This document shows, one piece after another, positions 58,802-64,000 of a stretch of DNA of 64,000 nt (position 1 is the first letter of the stretch; each line of letters starts with the position of its first letter). Made by a program: the position numbers and the translations under genes. The DNA lies in NCBI RefSeq assembly GCF_001042595.1, contig NZ_AP012326.1:806001-870000 (forward strand), in the 5' to 3' direction. The notes beneath the pieces were generated by a model, which did no database searches, was not told the origin of the DNA, and worked only from the letters and a program-made list of their open reading frames with translations. The stretch is from Bifidobacterium dentium JCM 1195 = DSM 20436. Lineage in GTDB: Bacteria > Actinomycetota > Actinomycetes > Actinomycetales > Bifidobacteriaceae.

Positions 58802-58872
58802 GGTTTCGATTGTCGGAAAGCATTAGGACAATGGGTATTCTGGACGGTGAATCGAAGAAAGCGAGGGTCGGC

Positions 58873-60420
58873 ATGGAACGGCAGGATGAGAGGTTGCGGT
58901 CCCTCAGTGAGGCCAATGACCGGCTGATGGCCAAGAACCATGCGTTGGCGAAGGCATTGACCCGTGCCACGCAAGAACTCACCAAGGCCAAGGCGCAACT
59001 GAATCAGTTGGCCGGGCCTCCCATGACTTTCGCCACCATGATACGCGTGCATGCGGCGAACACCGACGAACAGGGGGTGCAGCACGCCAGCGCCGAGGTG
59101 ATTTCGGGCACGCGGCGCATGATCGTGCCGGTGGCGGCGAACGTACAGGCGTCGCGGCTGGAGGCGGGACGTACGGTGCTGCTCAACGAGAACATGGTGA
59201 TAGTGGATCAGCATGACACCGACACCTTGGGTTCGGTGCGCACCGTCAGACAGGTTCTTGACGACGGTCGTCTGCTGGTGGCCGACAGTGGAGGCAACGT
59301 CACGTTGGTACGCCGTGCCGGCACACTCGCCAAGGAGAACGTCAATACCGGCGATCGGGTGAGCGTGGATTCCTCCGTCCGCTTCGCGCTGACCCTGATT
59401 CCCGTCGAGGATGACGCCGATCTGGTGCTTGAGGAGACTCCGGACGTCACCTTCGACGACATCGGCGGTCTGGACGAACAGATCGAGCGCATCCGTGACG
59501 CCGTGCAGATGCCGTTCCTGCACCGTGAGCTGTTCGAACGCTATGATTTGAAACCGCCGAAAGGGGTGTTGCTGTACGGCCCGCCCGGCAACGGCAAGAC
59601 GCTGATCGCCAAGGCCGTGGCAAACGCGCTCGCCGAAGGTTCCGGCGCGGGGTCGGGCGTGTTCCTTTCCGTGAAGGGGCCGGAGCTGCTCAACAAGTTC
59701 GTCGGTGAGTCGGAACGTCTGATTCGCATGATTTTCAGACGTGCGCGCGAACGTGCCGCCGACGGCAGGCCGGTCATCGTGTTCATCGACGAGATGGATT
59801 CGTTGCTGCGCACTCGCGGTTCCGGCGTGTCCTCCGACGTGGAAACCACCATCGTGCCGCAGTTCCTCTCCGAACTCGACGGTGTGGAAAGCCTTGACAA
59901 TGTGATGGTGATCGGAGCCTCCAACCGCATCGATATGATCGATCCGGCCGTGTTGCGTCCGGGTCGACTGGATGTGAAAATCCGTGTGGAACGTCCGAAA
60001 GCGAAGCAGGCCGAGCAGATCATCCGCCACTATCTGACCGACGACCTGCCGCTCACGCCGGGCATCGAGGCGAAGGCCCTGACCAGCGTGCTCGTCGCCG
60101 ACATCTATGCGGTCAGCGAGCATCGCCACCTATGCGACGTCTGCGACGAACACGGGCAGTGGTCGCCGGTCTATCTGGCCGACGTGGTTTCCGGAGCGGT
60201 ATTGAAGAACGTCGTGGATCGCGCCAAGACAAAGGCCGTCAAAATCTCCATCGAATCGGCGGAGCCCGCGGCGATCGGCGTGAATCTGCTGGCGAAGGCC
60301 GTGCAGGAGGAATTCGAAGAGACCCGTGACGCCGTGCTGGACGCCGATCCGGTGCAGTGGAGTCGAATCAACGGATTCGAGGCCGGGCATGTGACACGCA
60401 TCAGGCCGACGGCGCAATAA
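58873..60420 (+). CDS. arc: ARC/Mpa-type AAA ATPase of the pupylation locus
   Basis: 515-residue hexameric ATPase that in mycobacteria binds Pup and threads tagged proteins. An N-terminal coiled coil (about residues 1-47, the Pup-binding region), two OB folds (about 50-180) and one AAA domain follow, with Walker A GPPGNGKT at 236-243 and Walker B VIVFIDEMDS at 301-310. The mycobacterial C-terminal GQYL tail that docks to the 20S proteasome is missing; the protein ends RPTAQ. Longer starts (TTG 58810, ATG 58831) are in frame, but the ATG at 58873 has GAGGG five bases ahead and leaves room for divergent promoters with serB. Confidence 0.92.
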   Translation: MERQDERLRSLSEANDRLMAKNHALAKALTRATQELTKAKAQLNQLAGPPMTFATMIRVHAANTDEQGVQHASAEVISGTRRMIVPVAANVQASRLEAGRTVLLNENMVIVDQHDTDTLGSVRTVRQVLDDGRLLVADSGGNVTLVRRAGTLAKENVNTGDRVSVDSSVRFALTLIPVEDDADLVLEETPDVTFDDIGGLDEQIERIRDAVQMPFLHRELFERYDLKPPKGVLLYGPPGNGKTLIAKAVANALAEGSGAGSGVFLSVKGPELLNKFVGESERLIRMIFRRARERAADGRPVIVFIDEMDSLLRTRGSGVSSDVETTIVPQFLSELDGVESLDNVMVIGASNRIDMIDPAVLRPGRLDVKIRVERPKAKQAEQIIRHYLTDDLPLTPGIEAKALTSVLVADIYAVSEHRHLCDVCDEHGQWSPVYLADVVSGAVLKNVVDRAKTKAVKISIESAEPAAIGVNLLAKAVQEEFEETRDAVLDADPVQWSRINGFEAGHVTRIRPTAQ

Positions 60421-60465
60421 CCGGATCGGATCGGCCGGTATAGGGCAGAGGAAAGGAATCGGGAG

Positions 60466-62049
60466 ATGAGCGTTCGTCGAGTAATGGGAACCGAAACCGA
60501 GTATGCGGTTTCCAGTCGTGGGCAAGGCCGGTACAATCCGGTGCAGCTATCATTCGATGTGGTCGGCGCCGCCGCGGATGAACGCACGAAGCATATCCGC
60601 TGGGACTATCGGCAGGAAGATCCCGTCAACGACGCCCGCGGCACCCGTATGGAACGCGCCTGCGCACATCCCGACCTGCTCACCGACGCGCCACAGCTCA
60701 ACATCACCAACGTGATCGCAGCCAATGGCGGACGCATATATGTCGACCACGCGCATCCGGAATACTCCGCGCCGGAAACCACGGACCCCTTCGAGACGGT
60801 GCTCTACGACCATGCCGGTGATCTGATCATGCAGCAGGCCGCGCAGAAGGCGAGCGGCATCACGGGCCGCGCCATCATGCTGCATCGCAACAACGTGGAC
60901 GGCAAAGGCGCCAGTTGGGGCACGCATGAAAACTATATGATGCTGCGTGCGGTGCCGTTCGAGCATGTGGCACGGCTGATGACCGCGCATTTCGTTTCGC
61001 GGCAGATCTATACAGGCTCCGGTCGCGTCGGCCTGGGGGAGCGCAGCGAGCGCGCCGGCTACCAGCTCAGCCAGCGCGCCGACTACTTCCACATGAAAGT
61101 GGGACTGCAGACCACCTTCGACCGGCCCATCATCAACACCCGTGACGAATCGCACAGCACCGATGCATACCGTCGATTGCACGTGATCGTGGGCGACGCC
61201 AACCGTATGGACGTGCCGCAGGCGCTGAAACTCGGCACCACCAGCATGCTGCTGTGGGTGCTCGAGCATGGCAGGGAGGCGGGACTCGATCTGGAGGCGA
61301 TGATGGACGCGCTGGCGCTCGCCGATCCGGTGGAGGCCATGCATACCGTCTCGCACGACCTGACGTTGAATGCCGAACTGCCGTTGCGCAACGGCGGCAT
61401 GACCACGGCATGGCAGATGCAGGTCACCTTGCGGAGCATGGTGTATGCGGCGGCCGCGATGGTCTACGGCAGCGACACGGCGGGAGAACCCGTCTGGCCG
61501 GACCGTTCCACGCGCAACATCATGGCGATGTGGGGTCAGGCGCTCGCCGACGTGGCTGCCATCCGCCATGCCGACGACGATCGGCGTCTGGCCATGCGCG
61601 AAGAGGCAGGCCGCATCGAATGGCTGCTCAAATGGCGGCTGCTGGAGAAACTGCGCCGTAAAACCGGTTCCGATTGGGCCGACCCACGTTTGGCCGCCGT
61701 CGATCTGAGATGGGCCGCGTTGGATTCCTCGGATTCGATATTCATGAAACTGACGCCCCAGATGGAGCGGCTGGTCGATGATGCGCAATTGAGGCGGGCA
61801 ATCTCGGAACCACCAAGCGATACGCGTGCCTGGCTGCGCGCGCAGATGATCCGGCGTTTTCCCGAACAGACGGTGGCCGCATCCTGGTCTCATCTGACCG
61901 TTCGCAGTGAGATGAGTGGTGATGAATCCGTGGAGAATGCCATGACGTCATTGGATATGTCGGACCCTTTGGACTTTGGCGAATCCCAATGTCTGCGAGC
62001 CTTCGAGGGGGCATCGGACGCGCAGACGGTCATGAACCGCTTACGCTGA
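60466..62049 (+). CDS. dop: Depupylase/Pup deamidase Dop
   Basis: 527-residue member of the carboxylate-amine ligase-like family. It starts VRRVMGTETEYAVS (nucleotide-site glutamates) and has the catalytic aspartate in GGRIYVDHAHPEYSAPE (residue 94). The longer insert near residues 36-60 (the Dop loop) distinguishes it from PafA. Since Pup here already ends in Glu, the deamidation step is not needed, and Dop should serve to remove Pup. It lies 45 bp after arc. Confidence 0.94.
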   Translation: MSVRRVMGTETEYAVSSRGQGRYNPVQLSFDVVGAAADERTKHIRWDYRQEDPVNDARGTRMERACAHPDLLTDAPQLNITNVIAANGGRIYVDHAHPEYSAPETTDPFETVLYDHAGDLIMQQAAQKASGITGRAIMLHRNNVDGKGASWGTHENYMMLRAVPFEHVARLMTAHFVSRQIYTGSGRVGLGERSERAGYQLSQRADYFHMKVGLQTTFDRPIINTRDESHSTDAYRRLHVIVGDANRMDVPQALKLGTTSMLLWVLEHGREAGLDLEAMMDALALADPVEAMHTVSHDLTLNAELPLRNGGMTTAWQMQVTLRSMVYAAAAMVYGSDTAGEPVWPDRSTRNIMAMWGQALADVAAIRHADDDRRLAMREEAGRIEWLLKWRLLEKLRRKTGSDWADPRLAAVDLRWAALDSSDSIFMKLTPQMERLVDDAQLRRAISEPPSDTRAWLRAQMIRRFPEQTVAASWSHLTVRSEMSGDESVENAMTSLDMSDPLDFGESQCLRAFEGASDAQTVMNRLR

Positions 62050-62180
62050 ACATCACGTCGGTCGCGTACTATTCGTGATGATGGTATAACCATGCCAGGC
62101 AACAGGAACACAGAAACAGGCCCTGATATCAGGAGAGAACATATCGGGCGCGCAGTATGACGAATGAAAAGGCATAATCT

Positions 62181-63011
62181 ATGGAGTTGAGGCAAGCGGC
62201 CCTCGAAGTGGCCCGTATTCTGCAGGATGCAGGCAAACACGCATTGAACGATCAGACCAATCCGCGCGATATGAAAAGTCTTGAGCTGTCGGACGACCAC
62301 CTGCATTTCACGTCGGATCTCGACAAGCGTCTCGCACAGTTCATCAGCAACCGCATCACCTATGTCGACGTATTCGATGGATTTTGGCAGTTCCGCCCCG
62401 AAGAATGCCATCCGGGGGAACGGTACTGGTGCGTCGGAGGCATCGACGGCGTGATCAATTTCGCCCACGACATGCCGGAGTGGGCCATCACCGTGACCTT
62501 GTTCGAATTTAACGAGCAGTGCTCCGCACAGCCGATTCTCGCGGTGGTGCATGCCCCGGCGTTGGGTTTGACGTATCTTGCCGTCCGTGGCTCCGGTGCC
62601 ATTCGTATCCGTCGCACCCCGTTGGGCGACAAGCGCGAGAAGATCATCCCCTCCACCACACCGTCATTGGACGGGGCCGTGGTGAGTTTCGGCATGTCGT
62701 ACGTGCCGGCGGAATCCAAGCGATCACTTGACGTGGTGGCGCGCATCGCCGGACGTCCGGCCGACATCAAGCGCGTGGGGCCGGTGTCGCTGGATCTGTG
62801 CAAGGTGGCTGACGGCACGTATGATGCCTATTTCGAGCCGCATCTGCATAAATGGGATGTTCCCGCCGTGTCGGCCGGTGCCATGATGGTCTGGGAGGCG
62901 CAAGGTCACCTGAGCCAATGGAATGGCGACGGCGTTCACTGGCGTCAGGAAAACGACGTGGTCGCCACCAACGGACTCATCAACGACGATTTACGTCAGT
63001 ATTTGGTATAG
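62181..63011 (+). CDS. Degenerate inositol monophosphatase-family protein
   Basis: 276-residue protein with the IMPase/CysQ fold pattern: HFTSDLDKRLAQFI near residues 42-55, the A-motif region at 83-94, and RVGPVSLDLCKVADGTYDAYFEPHLHKWDVPAVSAG at about 198-233 with the second metal-site WD. The A motif should read W-x-x-D-P-I-D-G-T; here it is W-C-V-G-G-I-D-G-V, so the first metal aspartate is glycine (86) and the catalytic threonine is valine (91). The protein is probably impaired as a phosphatase. It sits between dop and pup, so a role linked to pupylation is possible but unproven. Confidence 0.75.
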   Translation: MELRQAALEVARILQDAGKHALNDQTNPRDMKSLELSDDHLHFTSDLDKRLAQFISNRITYVDVFDGFWQFRPEECHPGERYWCVGGIDGVINFAHDMPEWAITVTLFEFNEQCSAQPILAVVHAPALGLTYLAVRGSGAIRIRRTPLGDKREKIIPSTTPSLDGAVVSFGMSYVPAESKRSLDVVARIAGRPADIKRVGPVSLDLCKVADGTYDAYFEPHLHKWDVPAVSAGAMMVWEAQGHLSQWNGDGVHWRQENDVVATNGLINDDLRQYLV

Positions 63012-63113
63012 CGCCATAGGGCCTGTCTCTCATGGCCTCATGTGTGGCGCAGTCGGCGCCGTTGCGATTGGTGCAATCGCTGGCGGATGCCGAACGTATC
63101 GAAAGGGAAAGCC

Positions 63114-63305
63114 ATGCCTCAGGAATTCGAACAGATCCGATCCGCGGACCAGCCGTTGGACAGCGAGGAGAGCGCTCCGGTCGCCGGTGCGCGAACGGAT
63201 GATACCGTGGATGCCTTGGATGCCGTGCTGGATGATATCGAATCCGTATTGGAAACCAACGCCGAAGAATATGTCGGCAGTTTTGTGCAAAAAGGCGGCG
63301 AGTGA
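63114..63305 (+). CDS. pup: Prokaryotic ubiquitin-like protein Pup
   Basis: 63-residue disordered, acidic tag protein. The C-terminal half has the coiled-coil-forming [18 protein letters not shown] segment that binds the ATPase, and it ends FVQKGGE. Because the last residue is already Glu, PafA can use it directly without deamidation, unlike the GGQ form of mycobacteria. The only lysine is residue 60. An in-frame extension upstream exists, but the ATG at 63114 follows GAAAGGGAAAG. Its stop overlaps the pafA start (TGATG). Confidence 0.97.
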
Positions 63306-64000
63306 TGCCCCAGCTGCGCGACAGCGGCAATCATTCGACGGCCCCGCTTGACGGCAGGACCCGCGGTGAGGTCGACGCGTTCATCCGCATCTTCGGCATC
63401 GAAACCGAGTATGGAGTCAGCGTGACCGGAGCCGATGCGCCCTGTGATGCGGGGCAGACGGCCATGATGATGTTCCAGCCGATCGTGGCCCAGGCCAGAT
63501 CGACGAACACTTACATCGAAAACGGTTCGAGACTCTATCTTGATGTTGGTTCGCATCCGGAATACGCCACGGCGGAAGCCCGGGATCCCATGGATGCGTT
63601 GGCGCTTGACGCGGCCGGCGAGCTGGTGATGCGCGATCTTGCCATGGACACCCAGCACAGGTTGCGGGAAGGTCATGGCAGGCGTGCCATCGTGCATGTG
63701 TTCAAGAACAACGCCGATTCGGCCGGTCATTCCTTCGGTTGCCATGAAAATTATCTGGTGCGGCGTTTCGTGCCGTTGGAGACCATCGAACATGAGTTGT
63801 TGCCATTCTTGATCACCCGGCAGATATTCACCGGTGCCGGTCGTGTGGGCGGACAAGGCTTCCAGATCACGCAACGTGCCGATTTTCTGGATGAGGCCGT
63901 GTCTTCGGCCACCACGCGCTCGCGCCCGATGGTGAACACGCGCGACGAACCACATGCCGATCCGGACGCGTTCCGTCGTCTGCATGTGATCATCGGCGAT
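63305..64000 (+). CDS. pafA: Pup-protein ligase PafA, 3' truncated by window
   Basis: The first 232 residues of PafA, the ligase that joins the Pup C-terminal glutamate to substrate lysines. Motifs IFGIETEYGVSV (about residues 29-40) and RLYLDVGSHPEYATAEARDP (catalytic aspartate 80) are intact, as is the HSFGCHENYLVRR and GAGRVGGQGFQITQRADF region. The N-terminus is about 16-20 residues longer than in corynebacterial PafA. The gene begins on the last base of pup and runs off the window end. Confidence 0.95.
   Translation, partial: MPQLRDSGNHSTAPLDGRTRGEVDAFIRIFGIETEYGVSVTGADAPCDAGQTAMMMFQPIVAQARSTNTYIENGSRLYLDVGSHPEYATAEARDPMDALALDAAGELVMRDLAMDTQHRLREGHGRRAIVHVFKNNADSAGHSFGCHENYLVRRFVPLETIEHELLPFLITRQIFTGAGRVGGQGFQITQRADFLDEAVSSATTRSRPMVNTRDEPHADPDAFRRLHVIIGD

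Follow-up and report, generated by a model that had tools for sequence, protein, structure and literature searches.

A complete pupylation locus without a detectable 20S proteasome in Bifidobacterium dentium

The closest described relatives of the locus reported here are those of actinobacteria that have retained pupylation genes but no proteasome subunits. According to the accessible text of PMC3511204, the ATPase of these bacteria lacks its C-terminal motif and pup lies directly before pafA. PMC4254994, as far as its text is accessible, sought genes that co-occur with prcA/prcB and demanded absence from corynebacteria and bifidobacteria, and a figure legend of PMC8223512 calls secondary loss likely. 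The original prediction had stated that reviews note the loss of the proteasome in bifidobacteria, and the accessible parts of two papers bear this out, PMC3511204 for the class and PMC4254994 for bifidobacteria themselves. The locus is therefore of a known kind, which had been published by 2012 at the latest and recurs in related bacteria.

Where pupylation occurs without a proteasome, tagging is uncoupled from destruction in a natural experiment. In the accessible literature the worked proteasome-free example so far is one organism with one client, ferritin. In C. glutamicum, which has no 20S proteasome, knockouts of pup, pafA and dop grow poorly under iron limitation (PMC8223512, accessible text), and the disassembly or unfolding of pupylated ferritin by ARC has been proposed (PMC8223512, PMC12288473). 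For bifidobacterial pupylation, no experimental study was found among titles and abstract openings, with few subscription papers covered; the accessible text on a B. longum biofilm transcriptome mentions PafA a single time, as stress-related (PMC7917626).

We analysed a window of 64,000 nucleotides (bases 806001-870000) of the B. dentium genome, which is assembled as one contig of 2.64 Mb and is 99.98% complete. Positions below are those of the window, which ends in the following features:

58873-60420, plus strand: arc, the AAA+ ring ATPase ARC/Mpa (TIGR03689, 688.7 bits, cut-off 504.75)
60466-62049, plus strand: dop, depupylase/deamidase (TIGR03688, 637.4 bits, cut-off 492.3)
62181-63011, plus strand: an IMPase-family gene with a degenerate metal site (PF00459, 75.5 bits)
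63114-63305, plus strand: pup, 63 amino acids, MPQEF...FVQKGGE (PF05639, 55.9 bits; TIGR03687, 59.6 bits, cut-off 41.45)
63305-64768, plus strand: pafA, the Pup ligase (TIGR03686, 551.3 bits), of which the window holds 63305-64000

All four Pup-system proteins match their own NCBIfam equivalogs, PafA with a score exactly at the TIGR03686 cut-off, and the catalytic-region motifs are intact: Dop carries YVDHAHPEYS, common to 4b0r and 9cku, and PafA carries YLDVGSHPEYATAE, the same as in 4b0t. ARC aligns to the Mpa/ARC entry 7ljf with E 2.9e-124, and its gene has an alternative in-frame TTG start at 58810. Upstream of arc lie serB (TIGR00338 match) and other genes, presumably metK, priA and fmt. 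The original prediction of a complete pupylation locus within 58873 to 64000 holds as far as arc, dop, pup and pafA lie together with their family matches; the interval is too short, since the window breaks off after 232 codons of pafA and the gene ends beyond its edge. A phosphatase-like gene had furthermore been placed where mycobacteria carry prcB/prcA, and this does not hold. The gene sits between dop and pup, whereas the PF00227 genes of 20S-bearing genomes come after pup (for example in genome G202, Pup end at 82462-82485 and PF00227 at 82628-83170), and here nothing lies between pup and the pafA gene that it directly precedes, as both overlap by one base at 63305. In another locus of the genus (L093, genome G103) the pup frame enters pafA without a GGE end and the end of PafA looks disturbed too, which may stem from an error in the sequence or from a genuine fusion.

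PF00227, a profile that presumably covers HslV as well, has no match in the complete B. dentium genome (0 of 1) or, with this genome included, in any of the 112 genomes of the genus sample, which is Bifidobacterium with Gardnerella inside it; the search was positive in 10 of 14 control genomes. The whole-genome check for prcA/prcB thus comes out as had been expected. Remnants of prcBA at the locus were sought with 52 ORFs located downstream of pup in 20S-bearing loci, which are unproven as Prc (the motif sought was present in 0 of 52), and the matches listed are pafA and dop, plus others at E 0.03 or worse; this is a weak test, and no conclusion here depends on it. A sample of 248 genomes of the order contains 132 with PF00227 and 223 with a Dop match (219 above the cut-off). 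None of the 25 Dop-less genomes has a PF00227 match, and 91 of the 223 Dop-bearing genomes have no 20S match, distributed over seven family labels (f1, f3, f5, f8, f9, f10, f14).

Translation confirms that ARC ends in RPTAQ and is devoid of the GQYL docking tail. The tail is likewise missing from all 92 Bifidobacterium ARCs (96 loci were read, four of which yielded none) and from all six ARCs of a second genus of the family. For comparison, 40 loci were picked from the order sample, 20 with and 20 without a 20S proteasome. GQYL occurs in 12 of the 15 ARCs from the 20S-bearing loci, the other three ending in GPYL, SDLV and SDLL (five of these 20 loci yielded no ARC), and in none of the 18 ARCs from 20S-less loci of other families (two of these 20 yielded no ARC); six further 20S-bearing loci yielded 4 ARCs, all 4 with GQYL. 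The second element that holds Mpa to the 20S core is the ANGDK hairpin (PMC8755798, accessible text). Its position reads EHGQW in the B. dentium ARC and ANGDK, ASGDK or ANGDT in 13 of 15 20S-bearing relatives. The hairpin is not a clean rule, as AGGDK or ASGDK is kept in 5 of 18 20S-less relatives of other families; the eight Bifidobacterium forms listed, which represent 46 of the 92 sequences, include no ANGDK/ASGDK-like hairpin. Among the 92 Bifidobacterium ARCs, the motor motifs are present nearly throughout: Walker A (GPPGNGKT) in 89, Walker B (FIDEMD) in 91 and the pore loop (K[FY]VGESE) in 90. As judged from its sequence, the B. dentium ARC has lost both known 20S docking elements and kept its motor motifs.

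ARC tails differ among members of the genus and share no new common motif. Identity to the ARCs of 20S-less loci of other families is 35-52% over the best stretch (18 of 20 fetched loci; 2 gave no ARC). Two 20S-less loci of another family (L137, L138) encode ARCs that end in RDYL, possibly an eroded form of GQYL that dates from a recent loss. The SDLV and SDLL ends belong to two 20S-bearing loci (L172, L174), and docking may differ in that family.

The Pup protein ends in GGE, as predicted. That GGE speaks for a proteasome-free Pup is a different matter: 75 of 92 Bifidobacterium Pups end in GGE and 17 in GGQ (93 loci have a pup, 3 of 96 having none in the stretch; the disturbed frame of L093 leaves 92). 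Across the order sample the end pattern is GGE in 29 genomes and GGQ in 194, a total of 223 with zero overlap. GGE is found in 23 of 91 20S-less versus 6 of 132 20S-bearing genomes with Dop (Fisher p 9e-6, uncorrected for kinship), and reading of the loci confirmed it in the six 20S-bearing genomes. As a mark of proteasome loss, GGE is rejected: it is enriched in genomes without 20S, yet neither needed nor exclusive. Three genomes of the order (G159, G245, G266) show two Pup-like GGQ ends each, a hint of duplicated Pup genes.

The C-terminal core is nearly invariant across the 92 Pups. In the N-terminal region, Phe5 recurs in 67 of 92 and Gln7 in 64 of 92, and residues 13-24 average 3.15 bits; the choice of start favoured M[PAVTS][QGRSD][QEDRGSK], so that conservation at residues 2-4 is partly built in and proves little. 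Recurring Phe5 and Gln7 would be the expected pattern if ARC still threads the Pup N-terminus, and the conservation could alternatively stem from translation or from PafA binding.

Comparison of 13 genome pairs gave dN/dS values of 0.04-0.25 for ARC, 0.06-0.22 for Dop and 0.07-0.20 for PafA, which indicates that the three enzymes are under purifying selection. The values for Pup suggest weak constraint (0.10-0.90), though they are inflated by codons upstream of the likely start. A PF03136 match is missing in 14 of the 112 genomes. Nine loci fetched from such genomes (L127-L135) hold no convincing remnant of arc, dop, pup or pafA, and the four genes therefore appear to have been lost together. 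Since no 20S proteasome is found in genome or genus, the docking tail is gone, and the machinery is intact and under purifying selection, we agree with the original prediction that Pup acts here without a 20S proteasome.

We note that the IMPase-family gene has a fixed place in the locus. It precedes pup-pafA in all 93 loci that hold all three genes (3 of 96 did not), with dop upstream on the same strand in 80 and in the opposite direction in 13. Rearranged loci, in which arc-dop and IMPase-pup-pafA lie close by on opposite strands, are L075, L082, L084-L087, L091, L096, L106, L114, L115, L120 and L125. In the second genus of the family the gene lies between dop and pup in all six Dop-bearing genomes examined, and Dop and the IMPase are both missing from three small genomes of the family. 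The 40 loci of other families contain no IMPase match. The gene is found in 110 of the 112 genus genomes and also outlives the Pup genes: 13 of the 14 genomes that lack PF03136 still carry it, the exception being a 74% complete genome, as does one Dop-less genome of the second genus. In the Pup-less loci L127-L135 it lies near fmt in 9 of 9 and near serB in 8 of 9.

The encoded protein resembles the inositol monophosphatase family (HisN, SuhB, ImpA, CysQ) in its PF00459 match and in the kept IDG, N and WD residues, and differs in a score far below the NCBIfam cut-off of each of the six IMPase-type models listed. We take DPxDGT, which is also seen in aligned relatives, to be the metal-binding and catalytic motif. 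At the position of its first metal-site Asp, 99 of 102 IMPase-like proteins (L032-L126 included) have Gly and the other 3 have Ser, and the Thr of the motif is retained in 1 of 102, so that an intact DPxDGT of a catalytic inositol monophosphatase is not found here. Many other positions are invariant among 33 aligned proteins, and dN/dS is 0.00-0.13. The nearest named relative is the B. moukalabense protein (99%; own or very near records were possibly left out), and no virus family in PHROGs matches. An identity as HisN is rejected, with 62.5 bits against the HisN cut-off of 275.15 and no tie to histidine synthesis, as the gene is still present in 14 of 15 genomes that have no HisD match. A proteasome substitute or Pup cofactor is likewise rejected, as the gene persists in Pup-less genomes despite its fixed place before pup-pafA. 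Because of its degenerate metal site and its persistence beyond the Pup genes, it is best read as a resident neighbour with its own role that is flanked by Pup genes; it is probably outside the Pup pathway and possibly encodes a pseudo-phosphatase.

The best reading of the locus is a non-degradative Pup/ARC/Dop cycle, which has already been published for loci of this type (PMC3511204; C. glutamicum). On balance we favour a complete pupylation locus that is maintained by selection without a proteasome, in which Pup tags, ARC unfolds or disassembles, Dop recycles and nothing is degraded. From the genes and motifs we infer the following steps. PafA would attach Pup through its C-terminal Glu to lysines on client proteins; ARC, as a ring, would catch Pup, thread its N-terminus, and unfold or disassemble the client; Dop would cut off Pup, making client and tag available for reuse. 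ARC would accordingly be a Pup-directed disassembly machine, and a classical ferritin is unlikely to be its client. A precedent is the disassembly of ferritin that has been proposed for ARC in 20S-less C. glutamicum (PMC8223512, PMC12288473, accessible text). Several points weigh against this cycle: Mpa aids depupylation in vitro (PMC3511204, accessible text), which could account for ARC even if it does not serve to unfold clients, the client family of C. glutamicum is unmatched in 13 near-complete Pup-bearing genomes, and the dN/dS values of Pup, though inflated, point to weak constraint. A narrower version, in which the protease-free cycle with Dop recycling applies ARC to non-ferritin assemblies and forms a second, ferritin-independent branch, possibly aided by the IMPase-like protein, is put forward tentatively.

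The main rival holds that Pup is a plain reversible mark that alters the activity of the client, with ARC merely aiding Dop in stripping it. The intact Dop and PafA motifs fit this explanation, as does the enhanced depupylation by Mpa in vitro, which the accessible text of PMC3511204 offers as a possible reason for keeping the ATPase. The conserved pore-loop and ATPase motifs of ARC are more than a binding aid needs, a point that is not decisive, and we regard the plain mark as rather unlikely though deserving of serious attention. Other proteases are expected in such a bacterium, and with its motor motifs intact ARC might instead hand pupylated clients to ClpP, Lon, FtsH or another peptidase. 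Among the Pup genes there is no gene for a peptidase, however, and the variable ARC tails of the genus offer no new shared motif, which makes such a handover improbable.

A further explanation transfers the job proposed for C. glutamicum, where ARC would take apart pupylated ferritin to release iron, to B. dentium. It has the published case of this likewise 20S-less bacterium (PMC8223512, accessible text) and the presence of the ferritin family PF00210 in 98 of 112 genus genomes in its favour. The single PF00210 match of the B. dentium genome is Dps-like, however, with 1uvh as its best PDB relative (E 1.7e-43) and Dps as its best NCBIfam model (99.3 bits, below the cut-off of 114), and a classical ferritin was not found in this genome; the PF00210 proteins of three other genomes (G014, G100, G101) score higher. 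Of the 14 genomes without PF00210, 13 are 99-100% complete and have Dop/PafA matches, the fourteenth being 74% complete, while all 14 genomes lacking PF03136 carry PF00210. The Pup genes and the ferritin family are therefore unlinked in the genus, ferritin is unlikely as its general client, and by this gene inventory the C. glutamicum explanation does not transfer to the B. dentium locus, for which we consider it very improbable. The original statement on the downstream fate needs qualification: the accessible text of PMC8223512 gives a partly tested fate for C. glutamicum, with ferritin as the client, but that client class is unmatched here. Finally, a decaying remnant of a Pup-proteasome system, which the 14 of 112 genomes without PF03136 might suggest, is hardly credible and largely refuted by purifying selection, given the low dN/dS of the three enzymes and their conserved motifs.

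For the favoured non-degradative cycle, the 13 near-complete Pup-bearing genomes without a ferritin-family match imply that another client sustains selection, unless a divergent protein was missed. Bifidobacterium is hence a place to find a non-ferritin Pup client; the locus itself is no new kind of system. The present analysis contributes the gene order across the family, the finding that the ferritin explanation fits the genus poorly, and the degenerate IMPase.

With the mycobacterial Pup-proteasome system the locus shares homologues of Pup, PafA, Dop and ARC/Mpa, whose active-site motifs agree; it differs in that no PrcA/PrcB is found and that both the GQYL tail and the ANGDK hairpin are absent from ARC. 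The proteasome-less loci (cluster III of Barandun et al. 2012, PMC3511204, accessible text; C. glutamicum) are closer, with the arc-dop-pup-pafA order, pup adjoining pafA, the lack of prcBA, an ARC without C-terminal docking motif and a Pup that ends in GGE or GGQ in common. Relative to these, the B. dentium locus is distinguished by the IMPase-family gene between dop and pup and by a ferritin family that is represented only by a Dps-like protein.
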